The notes under the pieces are model-generated. The model saw nothing but the letters and a program-made list of their open reading frames with translations. It searched no databases and was not told the origin of the DNA. From the NCBI RefSeq assembly GCF_013201825.1, contig NZ_CP053836.1, forward strand, positions 1,984,001 to 2,048,000: a stretch of 64,000 nt of DNA, in the 5' to 3' direction. Source of the stretch: Halarcobacter ebronensis. GTDB lineage: Bacteria > Campylobacterota > Campylobacteria > Campylobacterales > Arcobacteraceae. Position 1 is the stretch's first letter; the number at the start of each line of letters is the position of its first letter. Positions 6,924 through 56,399 of the stretch are shown piece by piece. The translations under genes were made by a program, and so were the position numbers.

Positions 6924-7697
6924 AAATTTTGTAAGTTCTTCAGCAATAGAAGGCACTCTCATAAAATGCTCCCCTATTAGAAAAGCATCAGCACCAATTG
7001 AATTTAATCTTTTAATCGTTTCAATATTTGAAACTCCTGATTCTGCAACTATAATTTTTCCATTGGGTATCATTGGTATTAATTCATCACAAAGATTCAT
7101 ATCCATCTCAAAAGTCTCTAAATTTCTATGATTTATTCCAATTATATTGGCTCCACATTTCATAGCTTTTTTCAAATCCTCTTTATCATGAATTTCAACT
7201 AAAACTTCTAATCCTAAATGAAGAGCATACTCATATAACTCTTTTAACTCTTTTGTACTCAAACTCTTTGCTATAAGTAAAATAAAATCTGCACCATAAA
7301 CAAGTGCTTCAACAATTTGATATTTATCTAAGATAAAATCTTTTCTAAGAAGTGGTGTTGGGACATATCTTCTTATTTGTGTAAGATACTCCAAATTACC
7401 TTGAAAATAGTGAGGTTCAGTTAGAACAGAGATAGCATTTGCGCCATTATTTGAATACTCTTGAGCAATTATAAGTGGATCAAAATCCTCTTTTATTACA
7501 CCTTTACTAGGACTTGCTTTTTTAACCTCAGCAATAATCCTTATTGGTTCTTCTTTTGTTGAAGTTAAATATGGTTTTACATCTCTTGGAGGAAAAGGAT
7601 TGATACTTAAGCTTCTTCCTAACCAATCAAGTGAGTACTCCTTTTTTCTTCTCTCAACATCTTCTCTTGTTCTTCTATTTATCTCATCTAAAATCAC
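6906..7697 (-). CDS. trpC: Indole-3-glycerol phosphate synthase
   Basis: This is the monofunctional TrpC barrel of 263 residues, the fourth step of tryptophan synthesis. The active-site strand motifs are [10 protein letters not shown] (57-66), PLLRKDFI with Lys119, then [23 protein letters not shown] and FLIGEHFM, all in family order. It is not next to other trp genes; trpF lies 7 kb away on the same strand. Start overlaps the stop of the TPR lipoprotein gene by 4 nt, so it is the last gene of that operon. Confidence 0.97.
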
Positions 7698-43043: not shown

Positions 43044-44657
43044 ATGGAAAGAAGAGATTTTATGAGAGTAGCGGCAGCAGCTTCTGTATTGCCATTTTTA
43101 AGATATTTACCAACAGAAGCACATGCAGCTTCTAGAGATGGAGTTTTAGTTATTGTTTCAGGACATACAATTAATAGTTTAGATTTACATAGACAAGGTA
43201 CAAATAGACCTAGTTATGAAGTAACAGTAAACATCTATGATAGACTTGTAAGATTTGGTCTTAAAACATTAGCAGATGGAACAATCTCTTATGACTCAAC
43301 AAAAATTGAACCTCAAATTGCAAAATCATGGGAGTTTTCAGAAGATAGAAAATCAATCACATTTAAAATTGATGAAAGGGCAAAATTTTGGGATGGAACA
43401 CCAGTAACTGCCCATGATGTAAAATGGTCATTTGATAGAGCTGTAAGTTTAGGTGGTTTTCCAACTGTACAAATGAAAGCTGGTTCTATGAGTGATCCTA
43501 AACAGTTTGTTGTTGTTGATGATATGACTTTTAGAATTGATACACTAATTGCTTCTAAACTAACACTTCCAGATTTAGCTGTTCCAATTCCATTTATTAT
43601 TAATTCAAAAGTAGCTAAACAACACGCAACTGCAAAAGATCCTTGGGCAACTGAGTATCTACACAAAACTCCTGCTGGTTCAGGTCCATATAAAATTGCA
43701 AGATGGGATGCTGGGCAACAGTATGTTTATGAGAGAAATGACGACTATGAAGTAGGTACAAAACCTGCAATTAAAAGAGTAATTGTAAGGGAAGTTCCTT
43801 CAGCTTCTACAAGAAGAGCTTTACTTGAAAGAAAAGACGCTGACCTTTATACAGATGTTCCGCCAAAAGATGTAAAAGAGTTTAAAGAGCAAGGGAAAAT
43901 AAAAGTTTCAGGTGCTCCTGTTGATAACTGCTTACATGTTTTAGGATTAAATGTAAAATATAAACCCTTTGACAATAAAAAAGTTAGACAAGCTATTGCT
44001 TATGCACTTCCATACAAAGAGATTTTATCTTCAGGAGCTTATGGCAGAGGGGAAGTTATGTTTGGAGCAAAAGAGACAAAACCTTCAACAATAAAATGGC
44101 CACAACCTTTCCCTTATGATACAAATATAGAAAAAGCTAAAAAACTACTTGAAGAGGCTGGATTTAAAGATGGTTTTGAAACAACACTATCTTATAACCT
44201 TGGAATGGCTGATTGGGAAGAACCAACTGCTCTTTTAATTCAAGAAGCACTCAAAAAAATCGGTATAAAAGTCAAACTTGACAAAATCCCTGGGGCAAAT
44301 TGGAGAACAGCAGCTTTAGTTGAAAAAAGACTTCCAATGCACTTAGAGAATTTTGGTGGATGGTTAAATTATCCTGATTATTACTTTTTCTGGGCATATC
44401 AATATGGACATCTATTTAACTCATCAAACTATAAAAATGAAGAGATGGAAACCCTTGTTGAAAAAACACTTCATATGGAAGTAAATAATCCAGAGTACGA
44501 AAAACTAATTAAACAGATGATAGAGATTGCATTCGAAGATGTTCCTAGAATTCCCCTTTATCAACCATATTTAGATGCTGCAATGCAAAAAAATGTTGAT
44601 GGATACTCTTCTTGGTTCCATAGACAATTGGATTGTAGTACATTAACAAAATCGTAA
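43044..44657 (+). CDS. Tat-exported family 5 solute-binding protein of the atzF locus
   Basis: This periplasmic binding protein of 537 residues belongs to the peptide/nickel class. It starts with a Tat-like signal (MERRDFMRVAAAASVLPFL, cleavage after AHA), unusual since most such proteins use Sec. SBP_bac_5 motifs follow: PQIAKSWEFSEDRKSITFKI, AKFWDGTPVTAHDVKWSFDRA, GSGPYKIARWD and KVRQAIAYALPYKEIL. It lies 10 nt after atzF with AAGGAAA as ribosome binding site. The ligand is probably the source compound for AtzF or another amide-containing solute; this is inferred from context. Confidence 0.9.
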   Translation: MERRDFMRVAAAASVLPFLRYLPTEAHAASRDGVLVIVSGHTINSLDLHRQGTNRPSYEVTVNIYDRLVRFGLKTLADGTISYDSTKIEPQIAKSWEFSEDRKSITFKIDERAKFWDGTPVTAHDVKWSFDRAVSLGGFPTVQMKAGSMSDPKQFVVVDDMTFRIDTLIASKLTLPDLAVPIPFIINSKVAKQHATAKDPWATEYLHKTPAGSGPYKIARWDAGQQYVYERNDDYEVGTKPAIKRVIVREVPSASTRRALLERKDADLYTDVPPKDVKEFKEQGKIKVSGAPVDNCLHVLGLNVKYKPFDNKKVRQAIAYALPYKEILSSGAYGRGEVMFGAKETKPSTIKWPQPFPYDTNIEKAKKLLEEAGFKDGFETTLSYNLGMADWEEPTALLIQEALKKIGIKVKLDKIPGANWRTAALVEKRLPMHLENFGGWLNYPDYYFFWAYQYGHLFNSSNYKNEEMETLVEKTLHMEVNNPEYEKLIKQMIEIAFEDVPRIPLYQPYLDAAMQKNVDGYSSWFHRQLDCSTLTKS

Positions 44658-44661
44658 AACA

Positions 44662-45684
44662 ATGAAAACAAAAATTGGACAAATAGTAAATAGATTATTA
44701 CAAGCAATACCCTCTATTATAGGTATTGTAATAATCTCATTTTTATTGACCAGATCTTTGCCAGGGGATCCAGCAGTATATTTTGCTGGAGCTATGGCAG
44801 ATGAAGAGTCAATACAACAAGTAAGAGTTGCTTTAGGTTTAGATAAGGGTTTGATTGAACAGTTTTTTATCTATATTCAAAATCTGACTCAAGGTAATTT
44901 AGGACTCTCTTTAAATACAGGTGTTTCTGTGCTTGAAGAGATTACAACAAGACTACCTGCCTCTTTGGAGTTAACATTTATTGGACTTGGTTTTGCAATT
45001 TTAGTTGCAATTCCTTTAGGTATTTTATCAGCAACAAAACCTGGCAGTTTTATTGATCATTTTACAAGAGTATTAGTAACAATGGGAGTATCTTTGCCAA
45101 CCTTTTTTACAGGATTGTTTTTGATATATGTTTTCTATTTTCTTTTAGGTGTAGCGCCCTCTCCTATTGGAAGACTTGATATTATATATCTATCTCCTCC
45201 ACATGTAACAGGATTTTATACTATTGATTCTTTACTAGCAAATGATATGGAGACTTTTATGGCTAGTGTTAAACAGCTTATTTTACCCTCTATTACTTTG
45301 GGAATATTTGCTTTAGCTCCAATTGCAAGAATGACAAGAGCTTCAATGATAAATGCTCTTTCAAGTGATTATGTAAGAACTGCAAAGGCAAATGGACTTC
45401 CACAAGGAATGATTTTAGTAACTTATGCCCTTAGAAACTCTTTGTTATCAATATTAACAACCCTTGGAATGGTTTTCTCATTTTTATTGGGTGCAAATGT
45501 TTTAGTTGAAAAAGTATTTTCATGGCCTGGTATTGGTTCTTTTGCTATAGAAGCTTTAGTTGCTTCTGATTATGCTGCTGTACAAGGTTTTGTCTTAACA
45601 ATGGCAATGCTTTTTGTGGTAGTAAATTTAATAATAGATATTGTTTTAACTCTTATTGACCCAAGAGTATCAATAGATAATTAA
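44662..45684 (+). CDS. ABC transporter permease, DppB type
   Basis: This 340-residue inner membrane permease has about six helices, the conserved SLPGDPAVYFAGAMADEES and GLDKGLIEQFF segments after the first helix, and the EAA loop ARMTRASMINALSSDYVRTAKANGLP that contacts the ATPase. FSWPGIGSFAIEAL near the end is typical. It follows the binding protein by 4 nt. Confidence 0.93.
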   Translation: MKTKIGQIVNRLLQAIPSIIGIVIISFLLTRSLPGDPAVYFAGAMADEESIQQVRVALGLDKGLIEQFFIYIQNLTQGNLGLSLNTGVSVLEEITTRLPASLELTFIGLGFAILVAIPLGILSATKPGSFIDHFTRVLVTMGVSLPTFFTGLFLIYVFYFLLGVAPSPIGRLDIIYLSPPHVTGFYTIDSLLANDMETFMASVKQLILPSITLGIFALAPIARMTRASMINALSSDYVRTAKANGLPQGMILVTYALRNSLLSILTTLGMVFSFLLGANVLVEKVFSWPGIGSFAIEALVASDYAAVQGFVLTMAMLFVVVNLIIDIVLTLIDPRVSIDN

Positions 45685-45693
45685 GGAATAAAT

Positions 45694-46539
45694 ATGAATC
45701 AATTCTTAACTCATTTTAAATATATATTAAAAGAAAACTTAGTAACAGCACTCTCTTTTTTTATGTTTTTTGTAATAGTTTTTTTATCAATATTTGGCTC
45801 ATACCTTGCCCCTTATGATCCACTTTTAACAGACGCAACAGCTGTTTTATCTCCCCCTTCATTAGCTCATCCATTTGGGACTGATAATTTAGGAAGAGAT
45901 GTATTAAGCAGAGTAATTGTTGCCACAAGACTTGATTTATGGATCGCTTTTTCTGCTGTATTTTTATCATTTTTTATTGGTAGTGCCTTAGGTGCAATTT
46001 CAGGTTTTTGGGGAGGATGGCTTGACAAAATTATAGGAAGATTTTGTGATGCTATTATGGCATTTCCCCTTTTTGTTTTAGCAATGGGAATAGTTGCAAC
46101 ATTAGGGAATTCAGTGGAAAATATCATCTACGCAACAGCAATAATCAATCTTCCTTTTTATGCAAGAGTTACAAGATCTGAAGTTCTAATTAGAAGAGAT
46201 GCAGGTTATGTACAAGCAGCAAAATTAAATGGAAACTCTGATTTAAGAATCTTAGCTCTACAAATTTTTCCAAACTCTTTGCCCCCTATGATGATTCAAG
46301 TATCTCTTAATATGGGATGGGCAATATTAAATGCCGCTGGACTTTCGTTTATTGGTCTTGGTGTTAGACCTCCTGATGCAGAGTGGGGAATCATGGTAGC
46401 TGAAGGCGCAACATATATTGTTTCAGGTGAGTGGTGGTTAGCACTCTTTCCAGGACTTGCTCTAATGCTTGCAGTTTTCTGTTTTAACCTCTTAGGTGAT
46501 GGTCTAAGAGATTTAGTTGACCCTAAAAAAAGAACATAA
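45694..46539 (+). CDS. ABC transporter permease, DppC type
   Basis: This second permease of 281 residues carries HPFGTDNLGRDVLSRVIVATRLDL, the EAA loop YARVTRSEVLIRRDAGYVQAAKLNG and LSFIGLGVRPPDAEWG, all typical of DppC/OppC proteins. It pairs with the preceding permease and lies 9 nt downstream with AAGGA as ribosome binding site. Confidence 0.93.
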   Translation: MNQFLTHFKYILKENLVTALSFFMFFVIVFLSIFGSYLAPYDPLLTDATAVLSPPSLAHPFGTDNLGRDVLSRVIVATRLDLWIAFSAVFLSFFIGSALGAISGFWGGWLDKIIGRFCDAIMAFPLFVLAMGIVATLGNSVENIIYATAIINLPFYARVTRSEVLIRRDAGYVQAAKLNGNSDLRILALQIFPNSLPPMMIQVSLNMGWAILNAAGLSFIGLGVRPPDAEWGIMVAEGATYIVSGEWWLALFPGLALMLAVFCFNLLGDGLRDLVDPKKRT

Positions 46540-46548
46540 GGATATAAA

Positions 46549-48270
46549 ATGTATTCATTTTTAAATATTGATAAACTAAGTGTCGATTTCAAAACAAGAA
46601 ATGGAATTGTTCATGGGGTTAAAGAGGTATCTTTTGAGATAGATAAGGGTCAAATTTTAGGTGTTATTGGGGAGAGTGGTTCTGGGAAATCGGTAACTGC
46701 ATTTACTGTTTTGGGACTTCTTGATAGTGCTGGATATGTAAGTAATGGAGAGATTAAATATGAAGGTTTTTCCCTTACAAAAGCAAAAGAGAAAGAACTA
46801 AGAGAGTATAGAGGTAGAGAAATCTCTATGATTTTTCAAAATCCAAGGGCTGCACTAAATCCAATTAGATGTGTAGGTAAACAAATAGAAGATGTACTTA
46901 TTTGCCATAAACAAGCTACAAAACAGGATGCAAAAGAGAAAGCTATTAAAATGCTTGAAAAAGTAAAAATAGTAAATGCAAAACAGAGATATTGGTCATA
47001 CCCTTTTGAACTATCAGGAGGTATGTGTCAAAGGGTTATGATTGCAATTGCAATTGCTTGTAATCCAAGACTATTAATTGCTGATGAACCAACAACAGGG
47101 CTTGATGTTACTACTCAAAAAGTAATTATGGATTTAATAAAAGAGTTAGCAAAACAACACAATATGTCAGTTATGCTTATTACCCATGACTTAGGGATGG
47201 CAGCACTATATTGTGATAATATTTGTGTTATGCAAAAGGGTGAAATAGTTGAAAAAAACTCTGTTTTTAATCTTTTTAGAAACCCTACCCATCCTTATAC
47301 AAAAAAACTAATCGCAGCCTCTCCTGGACCTAAATCAAAACTTGAAGATTTAACTGCAATTCCAGATGAGATGGAGAATGAAACTATAAAAATAGTAAAA
47401 AAAGAGGAGAAAAAAAAGCTAATTAAATCAAATGAGATAGTACTTGAAGTTATAGATTTAGTTAAAAAATTTCCTATTGGTAAAAAAGCACTTTTTTCTT
47501 TTTCAAAAAAAGATGAAGAGGAGGTTTTTACAGCTGTAAATGGTATATCATTTTCTTTAAAAAGAGGTGAAAGTCTAGGTTTGGTTGGAGAATCAGGTTG
47601 CGGAAAATCAACAACTTCAAATATGATAACAAAACTTTTAGAACCAACCTCAGGTGATATTATCTTAGAAAATGAAAATATAACCCCTTATAGTGCTACA
47701 GCTTTTGCCAAAATGAAACAAAGAAGTAAAATTCAAATGGTTTTTCAAGACCCAACTGAGAGTCTAAATCCTAGATTTACAGCCTTTGATTCAATCTCTG
47801 AGCCTTTAAAAAGATTACTTAATATGAAAAACAATAAAGAGATAAAAAAAAGAGTTGAAGAGTTAAGTTTAATGGTTGGACTTCCTATTCATCTTCTTTC
47901 TAGATTTCCCCACCAATTATCTGGTGGACAAAAAGCAAGAGTTGGAATAGCAAGAGCAATATCAGTAAATCCAAAGGTTTTAATCCTTGATGAACCAACC
48001 TCAGCTTTGGATGTATCTGTACAAGCAGTTGTTTTACAACTTTTAGACAAATTAAAAAGAGAGTTACAAATGAGTTATATTTTTGTATCTCACGATTTAA
48101 ATGTGGTTAAACTGCTTTGTGAAAGGGTTATTGTGATGAATAGAGGAGAGATTATTGAACAAGGAAATGTTTATGATATTTTAGAAAATCCCAAAGAGGA
48201 GTATACTAAAAAACTTATTGCATCAATACCTCATTTTGAGCCTGAGAAACTAGCTCTTGTTGAGGAATAA
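46549..48270 (+). CDS. Fused double ABC ATPase, DppD-DppF type
   Basis: Two ATPase domains are joined in one 573-residue chain. The first has GVIGESGSGKSVTA (Walker A), FQNPRAALNPI (Q loop), LSGGMCQRVMIA (signature) and LLIADEPTTGLD (Walker B); the second has GLVGESGCGKSTTSN, FQDPTESLNPRF, LSGGQKARVGIA and LILDEPTSALD. The linker at about 270-300 is Glu/Lys rich. The first signature Gln-Cys (GMCQR) and the second Lys-Ala (GQKAR) depart slightly from GGQ(Q/R). It energises the permeases encoded upstream. Confidence 0.93.
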   Translation: MYSFLNIDKLSVDFKTRNGIVHGVKEVSFEIDKGQILGVIGESGSGKSVTAFTVLGLLDSAGYVSNGEIKYEGFSLTKAKEKELREYRGREISMIFQNPRAALNPIRCVGKQIEDVLICHKQATKQDAKEKAIKMLEKVKIVNAKQRYWSYPFELSGGMCQRVMIAIAIACNPRLLIADEPTTGLDVTTQKVIMDLIKELAKQHNMSVMLITHDLGMAALYCDNICVMQKGEIVEKNSVFNLFRNPTHPYTKKLIAASPGPKSKLEDLTAIPDEMENETIKIVKKEEKKKLIKSNEIVLEVIDLVKKFPIGKKALFSFSKKDEEEVFTAVNGISFSLKRGESLGLVGESGCGKSTTSNMITKLLEPTSGDIILENENITPYSATAFAKMKQRSKIQMVFQDPTESLNPRFTAFDSISEPLKRLLNMKNNKEIKKRVEELSLMVGLPIHLLSRFPHQLSGGQKARVGIARAISVNPKVLILDEPTSALDVSVQAVVLQLLDKLKRELQMSYIFVSHDLNVVKLLCERVIVMNRGEIIEQGNVYDILENPKEEYTKKLIASIPHFEPEKLALVEE

Positions 48271-50709: not shown

Positions 50710-50752
50710 TTAGCACTCACACTTGACAAGTGCTAATTTTATGTGTTATAAT
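50710..50752 (+). promoter_or_regulatory. CIRCE (HrcA) operator overlapping a sigma70 promoter
   Basis: TTAGCACTC (50710-50718), a 9-nt spacer and AAGTGCTAA (50728-50736) match the CIRCE consensus TTAGCACTC-N9-GAGTGCTAA with one mismatch. A consensus -35, TTGACA (50723-50728), lies inside the element, and TATAAT (50747-50752) follows after an 18-nt spacer. HrcA bound here would block the promoter, so the downstream gene should be induced by heat. No chaperone gene is near. Confidence 0.88.
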
Positions 50753-50781
50753 GAGTGAAATTTAATAAAGGATGTAAGGTT

Positions 50782-51342
50782 ATGAAAGATTTCAATAATT
50801 TGACAACAACAGAATCTTTTATAAACTATTATAAAAAAGATTCAAACAATATTTATAATAATTTTTTTCAAAAAAATAAAATAGTTGATTTAATCACAAA
50901 ATATGAATTGTATTATCAAATCTCATTAGGTAATTTTATTTTTGAAACCTTTTTAGATCAAGAGAGTACAGTAAAAAAACTTGAAGAATTAAATCTATAT
51001 ATTACCCCTGAAATTGCACTATTTAATATTTATAAAATAATAGAAGAGAACCAATTTAGTAACTCTATGGAAAAAGAGTTGGAAAATTTGATTAAAAGAG
51101 ATGCTTCTTTAAAAGCATTAGAAGATTTTGTAACAAAAGATAAAGATTTATTAGGTGCTAAATATTACATATCAGTAAAAAAAGAGGATATTTTAAAGGA
51201 TAAATTCTTTAATAAAATAATGCAATATAATTTCGAATCTAACTATCAAAGAACTTTTGAGCACTATAACTTAGTTGTAAGTGATAAGTTTATACAAAAT
51301 CTACAAATAAAAATATTGGAGTATGCTAAAGAGACTATTTAA
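50782..51342 (+). CDS. Hypothetical protein under CIRCE/HrcA control
   Basis: No known family was recognised. The start was placed at the ATG at 50782 because a GTG at 50755 lies upstream of the predicted transcription start. The product has 186 residues, is rich in Asn, Lys, Glu and Phe/Tyr, mostly helical, without signal peptide or membrane helix, and has no J domain, alpha-crystallin or zinc motif. It is not chaperone-like in any way I can see. The operator before it points to a role in the heat-shock response. It stands alone, convergent with a tiny possible gene. Confidence 0.8.
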   Translation: MKDFNNLTTTESFINYYKKDSNNIYNNFFQKNKIVDLITKYELYYQISLGNFIFETFLDQESTVKKLEELNLYITPEIALFNIYKIIEENQFSNSMEKELENLIKRDASLKALEDFVTKDKDLLGAKYYISVKKEDILKDKFFNKIMQYNFESNYQRTFEHYNLVVSDKFIQNLQIKILEYAKETI

Positions 51343-51506
51343 TATAGTCTTGCATACTCGACCTCTTCTTTTCTTTTTTTAATCTTTAAAAAGATAAACA
51401 TTAAATAAAAACCCAAAACACTCTTTATTATCAATGACATATAATAATAAATAATAAGTTTTTTATATTTTAGTTCCAATAATACATAAGTAAATAAAAA
51501 AATCAT
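51339..51506 (-). CDS. Possible small membrane protein
   Basis: Fifty-five codons encode two hydrophobic helices (MIFLFTYVLLEL and SLIIKSVLGFYLMFIFLKI) and a charged C-terminus (KKRKEEVEYARLY). The positive-inside pattern is sensible, but there is no good ribosome binding site and the region is AT-rich, so it may be a chance frame. A GTG at 51524 is an alternative start. It overlaps the stop of the CIRCE-controlled gene by 4 nt. Confidence 0.35.
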   Translation of the reverse strand: MIFLFTYVLLELKYKKLIIYYYMSLIIKSVLGFYLMFIFLKIKKRKEEVEYARLY

Positions 51507-51561: not shown

Positions 51562-53145
51562 ATGACAAGATTTTTAAATATTTTAATTTTTATATTAATA
51601 ATAACTTTTTTTGCAGCTTGTAGCACAGATAAAAAAGAGCCAAAAAATAAAAATCAACTTATTTTTGCTAGTACAAAAGATATTAGAGATATCAACCCTC
51701 ACCTTTATAGAGGAGAGATGGCAGCCCAAAATATGGTTTTTGAATCTTTAGTTATAAACACAGAAGAAGGAATTAAACCTTGGCTTGCAAAAAGTTGGGA
51801 TATTTCAAAAGATGGAAAAAATTATACTTTTCATCTAAGAGATAATATCTTTTTTTCCGATGGAACTGCTTTTACAGCAGAAGTAGTAAAAAAGAATTTT
51901 GATGCTGTTATGGAAAATAGAATAAGGCACTCATGGATGGAATTAATAAATGAGATAAATTATACAGAAGTTATTGATCCTTATACTTTTAAAATTAATT
52001 TAAAAAATGCATATTATCCCACCCTTATTGAACTATCTCTAACCCGTCCTTTTAGATTTATTTCACCAAATTGTTTTAAAAATAATAAGACTAAAGATGG
52101 TGTAAATTGTTATATAGGAACTGGTCCTTGGATTTTAAAAGAACATAAAAAAAATAATTATACACTTTTTGAAGAAAATAAAAATTACTGGAATATAAAA
52201 CCTAAAATAACTTCAGTTAAATGGAGAGTAATCCCCGATCATCAATCTTTAATTTTTGCCTTAGAAAAAGGTGAAATTGACCTTATTTTTGGTTCTGATG
52301 GAGATATGATTGATTTAAATGTATTTACAATGTTAGAGAAAAATAAAAAATATTCTACTATTTTAAGTAATCCAATTGCCTCAAGAACTATCGTTATAAA
52401 TACGAACAGAGAAATTACAAAGGATATAAAAGTCAGAGAAGCATTAGAGTATGCAATTGACAAAAAAAGTATTGTTTCAGGGATATTAAATGGAACTGAA
52501 AAGATTGCAGATACTCTTTTTTCAAAAAATATACCATATTCAAACATCCCTTTGAGCATAAAAGAGTATGAAACAAAAAAAGCAAATGAAATTTTAGAAA
52601 AAGATGGTTGGATTCTTAACAAAGAGACAAAAATAAGAGAAAAAGATAATAAACAATTACATATAAAGCTCTACTACAATGCAAAAAATGCACAAGAAAA
52701 GATTATTAGTGAATATATCCAAAGTAATCTAAAAGATATTGGTATTAAACTATCTATTATAGGAGAAGAGAAACAAACATTTTTGGATAGACAAAGAAGT
52801 GGTGATTTTGATTTAGTTTACTCTTTGTCTTGGGGAGCACCATATGATCCTCAATCTTATATCTCTTCTTGGAGAGCACTTTCACATAGTGATTATCAAG
52901 CACAATTAGGTTTAGCAAAAAAAGAGTGGTTAGATAATCAAATAAAAGCTATTTTACTAGAAACCAATGAAAAAAATAGAGAGAGGATGTATTATGAAAT
53001 ATTTAAATATATTCATGATCAGTATGTCTACATCCCTTTAAGTTACTCAAGAACAAAAGCAGTATTTAATCCAAATCTAAAAGGGGTAACTTTTAATATT
53101 TCACAATATGAGATACCATTTGAGAAATTTTATTTTGAAGAGTAA
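51562..53145 (+). CDS. nikA: Nickel-binding lipoprotein, NikA type
   Basis: This 527-residue family 5 binding protein has a lipoprotein signal (lipobox FAAC, Cys at 20), so it is tethered to the inner membrane rather than free as in E. coli. It aligns well to E. coli NikA throughout: INPHLYRGEMAAQNMVFESL, KPWLAKSWDISKDGKNYTF, RPFRFISP, GTGPWILKEH, WGAPYDPQSYISSWRA and SHSDYQAQLGL, retaining the Arg and His regions that line the nickel site. A strong AAGGAG precedes the ATG. It is the first gene of nikABCDE. Confidence 0.9.
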   Translation: MTRFLNILIFILIITFFAACSTDKKEPKNKNQLIFASTKDIRDINPHLYRGEMAAQNMVFESLVINTEEGIKPWLAKSWDISKDGKNYTFHLRDNIFFSDGTAFTAEVVKKNFDAVMENRIRHSWMELINEINYTEVIDPYTFKINLKNAYYPTLIELSLTRPFRFISPNCFKNNKTKDGVNCYIGTGPWILKEHKKNNYTLFEENKNYWNIKPKITSVKWRVIPDHQSLIFALEKGEIDLIFGSDGDMIDLNVFTMLEKNKKYSTILSNPIASRTIVINTNREITKDIKVREALEYAIDKKSIVSGILNGTEKIADTLFSKNIPYSNIPLSIKEYETKKANEILEKDGWILNKETKIREKDNKQLHIKLYYNAKNAQEKIISEYIQSNLKDIGIKLSIIGEEKQTFLDRQRSGDFDLVYSLSWGAPYDPQSYISSWRALSHSDYQAQLGLAKKEWLDNQIKAILLETNEKNRERMYYEIFKYIHDQYVYIPLSYSRTKAVFNPNLKGVTFNISQYEIPFEKFYFEE

Positions 53146-54076
53146 ATATATTCAGAACTTAATAGTAAAAAGAATAGTTACGTTACCTCTCTTATTACTA
53201 TTAATCTCTTTTGGTTCATTTTTTTTAGCTAATTTGTCACCAAGTGATCCAGCGGAGGTTACACTTAGAGTCAATGATATTGTTCCTACAAAAGAAGCAA
53301 TTGAAGAAACAAGAAAAGAATTAGGCTTAGATAGACCTTTTTTGGAGCAATACATGACTTGGGTGTCAAATATTGTTTTAAAAGGAGATTTTGGATTTAG
53401 TTATGAATCAAAAAAGAGTGTATTAAAAGAATTATTACAGGCTACTCCTATAACTTTTTATCTTACAATTTTTGCTTTAGGATTAATAGTATTTTTTAGT
53501 TTTTTCTTTGGAATTCTTTGTGCAGTTTATGAAAATCATTGGTTTGATAAAACAATAAGGAGTCTTATCTTTATTACAACAGCAACTCCAAGTTTTTGGT
53601 TAGGATTACTTCTTATTTGGTTTTTTTCCCTTAAGCTTAATCTTTTACCCTCAGGAGGCTATGATTCAATATATTCATTAATCTTGCCAGCTTTTACTTT
53701 GGCAATTACCTATATATCAACTTTTATAAGAATAATAAGAAATTCGCTAATAGAGATAAAAGATGCTCCTTTTATAATCTATGCAAAACTAAGAGGATTG
53801 AAAAAAAGTAAAATATTAAAACACCAAATTAAAAATATCATACCCCCTTTTATTGTGGCTTTAAATATGTCAATACCTAGACTATTTGCAGGAACTATTA
53901 TTGTTGAAAATGTTTTTGGATTGCCAGGACTAGGAAGAATCTGTATACAAGCAATTTTTAATAGAGACTTTCCCATAATCCAAACATATATTCTTTTTAT
54001 GGCAATTCTTTTTATAGTTTTTAATCTAATAGCAGATCTTTGGATTGTAATAAAAGATCCAAGAAAAAGAGTATAA
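53108..54076 (+). CDS. nikB: Nickel ABC transporter permease NikB
   Basis: This permease has up to 322 residues. Motifs are LANLSPSDPAEVTLRVND, ELGLDRPFLEQYMTW and the EAA-like ARLRGL equivalent AKLRGLKKSKILKHQIKN, plus FGLPGLGRICIQAIFNRDFPIIQ. The start is uncertain: the ATG at 53108 overlaps nikA by 38 nt without a ribosome binding site, and a TTG at 53135 would give a length closer to E. coli NikB. The nickel assignment rests on the neighbouring NikA. Confidence 0.85.
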   Translation: MRYHLRNFILKSKYIQNLIVKRIVTLPLLLLLISFGSFFLANLSPSDPAEVTLRVNDIVPTKEAIEETRKELGLDRPFLEQYMTWVSNIVLKGDFGFSYESKKSVLKELLQATPITFYLTIFALGLIVFFSFFFGILCAVYENHWFDKTIRSLIFITTATPSFWLGLLLIWFFSLKLNLLPSGGYDSIYSLILPAFTLAITYISTFIRIIRNSLIEIKDAPFIIYAKLRGLKKSKILKHQIKNIIPPFIVALNMSIPRLFAGTIIVENVFGLPGLGRICIQAIFNRDFPIIQTYILFMAILFIVFNLIADLWIVIKDPRKRV

Positions 54077-54925
54077 ATGAGAAAAGATTTTTTAAATAAA
54101 CTCTTCAAAGAGCCTCTTAGCCTAATCTCAATACTTTTTATATTAATAACCATAATCTTAGGAATTTTTGCACCTTTTTTTGCACCAAATAATCCCTATG
54201 AACCTAACTTAATAAATAAACTTCAATCTTTTAGTTTACAATACCCTTTAGGAACAGATTATCTAGGTAGATGCATCGCCTCAAGATTAATCTATGGAAT
54301 AAGAATTACCCTTTTTTATTCATTTCTTGCTATGACAATTACTGTATCTATTGGTCTATTTTTTGGTCTTTTAGCAAGTTTTTTTAAAAAAAGTAGTGAC
54401 TATATATTAAGAGTGTGTGATATTATGTTAACTTTTCCTAGTGAATTGATTATGATTACAATTGTAGGTGTATTGGGAACTGGTATAGAGAATATTATTA
54501 TTGCAAACATAGTTGCAAAGATTGCTTGGTATACTAGAATGACCTATATTTTTACAGAAAAACATGTAAATAAAAATTATATACAATTTGCAAAACTTAT
54601 GGGGACCCCTTCAAAAACCATACTTAAAAAACATCTTTTGCCTCTTATAATAAGCGATATAATAATGCTTGCAACACTAAACATTGGAACTGTAATCTTA
54701 AGTATTTCTGCTTTATCTTTTTTAGGTTTAGGTGTACAGGCCCCTAGTTGTGAATGGGGAATAATGTTAAATGAAGCAAAAAATGTAATGAGTATATCTC
54801 CTTTTCAGATGATAGCGCCAGGAGTTATGATTCTTTTTAGTGTTGCTGCTTTTAACTTTTTAGGAGATAGTATTAGAGATGCTTTAGATCCAAACTTTTA
54901 TAGGATTGAAAAGGAGAAGATTTGA
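54077..54925 (+). CDS. nikC: Nickel ABC transporter permease NikC
   Basis: This second permease of 282 residues contains YPLGTDYLGRCIASRLIYGIRITL, the EAA loop TRMTYIFTEKHVNKNYIQFAKLMG and ISALSFLGLGVQAPSCEWGIMLNEAKN. It starts directly after the nikB stop and its stop overlaps the nikD TTG start. Confidence 0.9.
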   Translation: MRKDFLNKLFKEPLSLISILFILITIILGIFAPFFAPNNPYEPNLINKLQSFSLQYPLGTDYLGRCIASRLIYGIRITLFYSFLAMTITVSIGLFFGLLASFFKKSSDYILRVCDIMLTFPSELIMITIVGVLGTGIENIIIANIVAKIAWYTRMTYIFTEKHVNKNYIQFAKLMGTPSKTILKKHLLPLIISDIIMLATLNIGTVILSISALSFLGLGVQAPSCEWGIMLNEAKNVMSISPFQMIAPGVMILFSVAAFNFLGDSIRDALDPNFYRIEKEKI

Positions 54926-55683
54926 GCACTATCCTAGAAGTAAAAAATCTAACTATAAAAGATAGAAATAGAGACTTAACTATAGTAGAAAATATAAACT
55001 TTACCCTAAATAATAAAGAGATATTAGGAATTGTAGGAAAGAGTGGAAGTGGAAAATCTCTACTTTGTAAAGCTCTTCTTCAAATACTTCCTGCAACTTT
55101 TAAAAAAGAAGGTGTAATAAAATTTAACAATTCAGATGAAAACTTTATTTTAGGTAGAGATGTCTCTGTTATTTGGCAAGATGCATTAAATGCCTTTGAT
55201 CCCCTTTGTACAATTAAAGAGCATATGTGTGAAAGTTTTTTATATAAGATTGATAAAAATGAGGCTCAAAAAATAAGCCTCTCTTTATTAAAAAGAGTTG
55301 GTATAACAGATTGCAAAAGAACTTTTTTTAGTTATCCAAATGAGTTAAGTGGTGGAGAGTTACAAAGAGTTATGATTGCAATTGCCTTACTTCAAGAAAC
55401 TAAACTTATAATTGCTGATGAACCGACTTCGTCTTTGGATTTAATAACTCAAAAACAGATTATAGATTTAATAAAAGAGTTAAACAAAACACTAATTTTT
55501 GTTACTCATGATTTAGCACTTATCTCAAAAATTGCACATAAAATTCTAATTTTAAATAATGGTAAAGTTGAAGAGTATGGTGTATCAAATGAAGTTTTCG
55601 CCACTCCTAAAACTTCCTATACAAAAGATCTTCTTTTAAAAAGAGAAAGATTATCTAAAAGGTTTTTAGAATGCTTAAAATAG
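54922..55683 (+). CDS. nikD: Nickel ABC transporter ATPase NikD (TTG start)
   Basis: This ATPase of 253 residues has GIVGKSGSGKSLLCKALL (Walker A), IWQDALNAFDPLCTIKEHM (Q loop), LSGGELQRVMIAIAL (signature) and LIIADEPTSSLD (Walker B). It starts at TTG in a TTGA overlap with nikC, supported by AAGGAGA upstream. It works as a pair with NikE. Confidence 0.9.
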   Translation: MSTILEVKNLTIKDRNRDLTIVENINFTLNNKEILGIVGKSGSGKSLLCKALLQILPATFKKEGVIKFNNSDENFILGRDVSVIWQDALNAFDPLCTIKEHMCESFLYKIDKNEAQKISLSLLKRVGITDCKRTFFSYPNELSGGELQRVMIAIALLQETKLIIADEPTSSLDLITQKQIIDLIKELNKTLIFVTHDLALISKIAHKILILNNGKVEEYGVSNEVFATPKTSYTKDLLLKRERLSKRFLECLK

Positions 55684-56399
55684 AAAATGTTTATAAAATG
55701 TATAATAAAAATAGTATAGCCTTAAAAAATATAAATTTTAATGTAAAAAGAGGAGATACCGTTGGAATAATAGGTGAGAGTGGAAGTGGAAAAAGCTCTT
55801 TAGGAAAATTGATTTTAGGGCTGGATAGAGTTACAAAAGGTAAAATCTTAATAGAGAATAAAGACTCTTCTTCATGGCACAAAAACAATTTAGGAGAAGT
55901 AAGCTTTGTATTTCAAAATTACAAAGAGTCTCTAAATCCTTTTTTTACAATAGAAGAGTCCATCCAAGAGATATTTTGGAAAGAAAAAAAGAGAACAAAA
56001 AGTGAGTTGGAATCTTTTTTAAAAATGATCAATTTAGAAAAAATTATTTTAAGTAGATTTCCCCATGAATTAAGTGGAGGAGAATTACAAAGAATAGCTA
56101 TTTTAAGAGCTTTGTTAACAGATCCTACCCTTCTTGTTTTAGATGAAGCTTTAAATGCTTTAGATATATCAAACCAAATTTTAATAACTAATCTTTTGAA
56201 AAAGAAAAAAGAAAAAAAAGCTATGACAACAATACTAATCAGCCATGATTTGGAAATTGCAACAATGTTCTGTGATAAATTGATTATCCTAAAAGAAGGA
56301 GAGTTAATAGAGATATTAAACAGCGATTTTTTAAAAGATGCCAAACACTCATATACAAAAACATTGTTAGATGCAGTGATTCCATTAAATTTAGACTAA
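55671..56399 (+). CDS. nikE: Nickel ABC transporter ATPase NikE
   Basis: This second ATPase of 242 residues has GIIGESGSGKSSLGKLI (Walker A), FQNYKESLNPFFTIEES, LSGGELQRIAILRALL and LLVLDEALNALD (Walker B; Ala where most have Pro-Thr). It overlaps nikD by 13 nt. An acetyltransferase gene follows after 12 nt, probably in the same transcript. Confidence 0.9.
   Translation: MLKIENVYKMYNKNSIALKNINFNVKRGDTVGIIGESGSGKSSLGKLILGLDRVTKGKILIENKDSSSWHKNNLGEVSFVFQNYKESLNPFFTIEESIQEIFWKEKKRTKSELESFLKMINLEKIILSRFPHELSGGELQRIAILRALLTDPTLLVLDEALNALDISNQILITNLLKKKKEKKAMTTILISHDLEIATMFCDKLIILKEGELIEILNSDFLKDAKHSYTKTLLDAVIPLNLD

Follow-up and report, generated by a model that had tools for sequence, protein, structure and literature searches.

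In Campylobacter jejuni and Helicobacter pylori, the main heat-shock operons are shared by two regulators, HspR and HrcA (PMC7464140; PMC6843607). The HrcA repressor acts there on CIRCE-like operators at heat-shock promoters, with groESL and the hrcA operon among its targets, and Halarcobacter ebronensis resembles both species in these respects (PMC7464140). Direct binding of HrcA to Pgro and Phrc is described for C. jejuni, where the repressor works together with HspR on multiple HAIR sites. In contrast, CIRCE in H. ebronensis is also found before htpG, clpB, hsp20 and a gene encoding a 186-residue protein, while a single good HAIR precedes cbpA-hspR. The HrcA regulon is a kind of system already described, and what is new in it is the 186-residue protein. 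In the literature searched, neither a paper dealing with the Arcobacteraceae HrcA regulon nor a relevant heat or hrcA-mutant transcriptome was found.

This study indicates that the gene encoding the 186-residue protein belongs to the HrcA heat-shock regulon. We assign this reading a probability of about 0.88. Relatives have kept CIRCE, whereas the remainder of the region has diverged. The gene lies in a 64-kb stretch of the H. ebronensis genome, hereafter the window, and its features are given in Table 1. The operator reads TTAGCACTC-N9-AAGTGCTAA (complete letters TTAGCACTCACACTTGACAAGTGCTAA), the consensus used being TTAGCACTC-N9-GAGTGCTAA. At a threshold of three mismatches or fewer it was the sole match in the window, where 0.03 matches were expected from shuffled sequences. 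A weight matrix built from 47 unique CIRCE sites of other genes gave it 32.7 bits, which is above the median of the known-gene sites, and the runner-up in the window scored 6.5. The promoter hexamers match at all 12 positions, and the start codon follows CIRCE by 46 nt. At the other end, a hairpin with a folding energy of -19.8 kcal/mol (z -5.0) overlaps the stop codon and the following same-strand gene begins about 220 nt after the gene, which points to a unit of one gene. The initial annotation had proposed a near-perfect CIRCE/HrcA operator overlapping the -35 of a well-formed sigma70 promoter with a single gene behind it; the operator and the promoter overlap were borne out, and the claim of a single gene proved well founded, given the hairpin and the T-rich tract at the stop codon. 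The wider surroundings comprise two peptide-type ABC transporter clusters (window positions 43044-48270 and 51562-56399), which flank a response regulator gene, a histidine kinase gene and the 186-residue gene.

Table 1. Features of the CIRCE-controlled gene, numbered from the first letter of the window.
Feature	Position	Strand	Remarks
CIRCE operator	50710..50736	+	arms 50710-50718 and 50728-50736, 9-nt spacer; one mismatch to consensus
-35 hexamer TTGACA	50723..50728	+	in the CIRCE spacer plus first base of the right arm, offset +13
-10 hexamer TATAAT	50747..50752	+	18-nt spacing
Likely ribosome-binding site AAAGGA	50767..50772	+	putative, read from the sequence
CDS, 186 residues	50782..51342	+	ATG at 50782, stop at 51342; family apparently restricted to Arcobacteraceae
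Terminator	51319..51380	+	hairpin 51319-51359, then T-rich tract; overlaps the stop codon

With regard to the rest of the genome (3.17 Mb, one contig), nine CIRCE sites were found at three mismatches or fewer, as compared with none for the reversed pattern that served as control. These sites precede groES-groEL, the 186-residue gene, htpG, clpB, hrcA and two hsp20 genes; of the two remaining matches, one falls between recR and dnaJ and the other within the soxC coding sequence. Besides the window site, seven of the eight thus adjoin chaperone genes or hrcA. The soxC match was rejected as a chance occurrence. The recR/dnaJ match is weak, with three mismatches, and was not seen in the other genomes examined, and we do not count on it as an operator. 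The repressor itself is encoded in the genome (NCBIfam equivalog NF003033, 250.5 bits against a cut-off of 248, at L008), and its gene has a CIRCE of its own upstream. The initial annotation had named groESL and hrcA-grpE-dnaK as what CIRCE normally controls; the set proved wider here, as it includes htpG, clpB and hsp20. In 17 relatives, the CIRCE sites whose flanks were fetched precede groES, htpG, clpB, hsp20, hrcA or the orthologue of the 186-residue gene. Summed over 18 genomes (these 17 and that of H. ebronensis), 113 sites were counted against 5 in the controls, a figure in which the sites with three mismatches were partly inspected and some with poor arms resemble chance matches.

Two other modes of heat-shock control were considered and rejected. 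HAIR, the operator of HspR, is not enriched in the genome as a second operator (111 sites against 106 in the control), and an RpoD profile found one sigma factor in the genome, so that control by another heat-shock sigma factor was set aside. HspR is encoded in a cbpA-hspR pair (L183:570-1851), and a single HAIR with one mismatch (C1:1793787-1793807) lies 50 nt before cbpA. As HAIR is otherwise not enriched, HspR may control little beyond its own operon in this organism.

The arrangement of operator and promoter differs among the CIRCE-bearing genes. In the promoters of groES, clpB and hrcA, the -10 is closely followed by CIRCE, whereas in those of hsp20 and of the 186-residue gene the -35 lies within CIRCE, exactly at offset +13. 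Searching for this composite pattern (TTAGCACT-N5-TTGACAASTGCTAA) in 104 Arcobacteraceae genomes returned 42 sites, and none with the reversed control. Among 25 composite sites that were inspected, the genes behind were exclusively hsp20, a cbpA-like DnaJ gene (in five genomes) or the 186-residue gene. The Arcobacteraceae hsp20 promoters are like that of the window gene, with the same composite operator, TTGACA at +13 and TATAAT 17-18 nt further on; the products differ, as the 186-residue protein is not an alpha-crystallin protein and has no family match. The obvious mechanism at such an operator would be steric exclusion of RNA polymerase.

Two further observations were made on composite operators. 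In genera g8 and g9 (L201-L205), the operator precedes the cbpA-like DnaJ gene instead of hsp20, which may represent a hand-over of cbpA from HspR to HrcA. In many hsp20 promoters, including those at L112, L115, L132, L148, L151, L154 and L161, the composite copy is accompanied by another CIRCE-like copy at a distance of 32 or about 90-98 nt, and these pairs suggest that HrcA binds cooperatively there.

Homologues of the 186-residue protein were found in 43 of the 104 Arcobacteraceae genomes by protein search. The six closest orthologues, five from the same genus and one from another, share 46-73% identity with it, and all six have CIRCE upstream, 30-46 nt before the ATG. Together with the window gene they form the closest clade, in which CIRCE is present in seven of seven genes from two genera. 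The most divergent orthologue (L017) possesses two CIRCE copies, 30 and 250 nt before its ATG. At L071, the orthologue of the 186-residue gene has its two CIRCE copies at 7192-7218 and 7412-7438, about 220 nt apart, with a further half-site between them. The 48 more distant homologues (L018-L065) showed no CIRCE, every match within 350 nt upstream having at least six mismatches. Conservation of the operator upstream of orthologues, whose absence the initial annotation had named in advance as a refutation, was thus found in the six closest orthologues, which span two genera, and did not extend to the more distant homologues. A maximum-likelihood tree placed the CIRCE-bearing homologues in a single clade with support of 100/99, so a single gain accounts for the pattern. 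Within its own genus the gene is patchy: of 16 genomes examined, 10 are without the CIRCE-bearing form.

Mean pairwise identity over six alignable promoters, including that of the window, was 0.92 and 0.94 in the two CIRCE arms, 1.0 in the -35 and 0.94 in the -10. Outside these elements, the values were 0.46 for the upstream flank, 0.38 for the free spacer positions and 0.58-0.64 for the stretches that separate the elements. Judged from this alignment, the pattern is a phylogenetic footprint of what is probably a working operator-promoter. The genes adjoining the orthologues vary among genomes, and the operator stays. HrcA control of the 186-residue gene is strongly supported by these comparisons, and its product is very probably a real heat-shock protein. 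The suggestion that it might be a new member of the heat-shock regulon has gained support from the conserved operator, from the HrcA encoded in the genome and from the other CIRCE sites, nearly all of which precede chaperone genes.

On this reading, the gene would form a transcription unit by itself within the HrcA heat-shock regulon. While the temperature is normal, HrcA would sit on the CIRCE that contains the -35 and keep the sigma70 RNA polymerase off the promoter. Upon heat or another protein-folding stress, HrcA would lose its binding to DNA and the gene would be derepressed, together with groESL, hrcA-grpE-dnaK, htpG, clpB and hsp20. The product would be a small soluble protein, probably helical.

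The 186-residue protein has a pI of 5.2 and contains neither cysteine nor tryptophan. As the initial annotation had stated, it is uncharacterised and has no chaperone domain: nothing significant was found in Pfam, NCBIfam, PHROGs, PADLOC or the PDB sequences, and no Pfam or NCBIfam model of the known chaperone families (Hsp60, Hsp70, Hsp90, Hsp100, DnaJ, GrpE, Hsp20, Hsp33) scored above its cut-off. A family profile of 39 homologues likewise gave nothing significant against the PDB sequences. In a 397-genome sample of the phylum, the family profile was positive in 14 genomes, all of them Arcobacteraceae, and no relatives were found in plasmid and phage records (tblastn) or in a scan of viral contigs. 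By these searches, the family appears to be found only in Arcobacteraceae. AlphaFold2 returned mostly helical models of low confidence, with a pLDDT of 43.6 from two sequences and 40.3 from one. In the family alignment, Y45 is invariant and Y41, F116, I137, F143 and M147 are nearly so. The homologues without CIRCE (L018-L065) belong to the same family and are alignable over about 150 residues, but mostly share 20-39% identity with the window protein; those whose pI was calculated are more acidic (about 4.1-5.0 versus 4.7-6.0). Distant short homologues of about 155 aa at L080, L082, L083 and L084 adjoin a gene whose uncharacterised product, about 190 aa long, carries a conserved TRHD motif. This product was considered as a partner of the 186-residue protein and rejected: two copies are encoded in the genome of the window, but elsewhere, and it too lacks a family match.

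As for the role of the protein, we tentatively favour, at close to an even chance, an accessory factor of protein homeostasis, such as a holdase, a co-chaperone or an adaptor of a disaggregase or protease. The argument for such a role is one of co-regulation, that is, guilt by association. The more tentative proposal, which we consider possible but rather doubtful, is that the protein is the founding member of a lineage-specific class of heat-shock chaperones or chaperone adaptors, recruited once into the HrcA regulon within Arcobacteraceae with an operator architecture of the hsp20 type. A serious contender, though we place it somewhat short of probable, is an HrcA-regulated stress effector outside protein quality control, for instance a modulator of growth, envelope or signalling, brought under HrcA by promoter capture. 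Knockout of HrcA in H. pylori also changes genes unrelated to stress, chaperones aside (PMC6843607), so that membership in the regulon is no proof of a chaperone role. Moreover, CIRCE is missing from homologues outside the clade, which occur in unrelated contexts, and the ancestral role of the family therefore need not be heat-related. Against this, the CIRCE sites with fetched flanks point to chaperone genes or hrcA, the 186-residue gene aside, and control has persisted as identity falls from 73% to 46%, which speaks for the importance of heat control to the function.

Membership in the HrcA regulon, for its part, faces two much weaker alternatives. It is very improbable that CIRCE serves a neighbouring gene: a histidine kinase gene upstream and the peptide ABC transporter cluster downstream do lie on the same strand, but the promoter is directed at the 186-residue ORF, the unit ends with the hairpin over the stop codon and, where neighbours vary in other genomes, the operator remains with the ORF. 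Least probable of all is a chance or non-HrcA palindrome, since the repeat, although a scanner also classes it as a terminator-like minus-strand hairpin, is kept in six orthologues with drifted flanks, outscores the median known-gene site and has no control matches, either in the genome or, as the composite pattern, in the 104 genomes.

The HrcA operators of Arcobacteraceae extend to htpG, clpB and hsp20, an arrangement unlike the wiring shared by HspR and HrcA that is described for Campylobacter and Helicobacter. CIRCE is highly selective, and in the genomes examined it precedes almost nothing except chaperone genes. Given this near-exclusive association, a conserved orphan gene behind CIRCE makes a strong lead in the search for components of protein quality control that have yet to be described.
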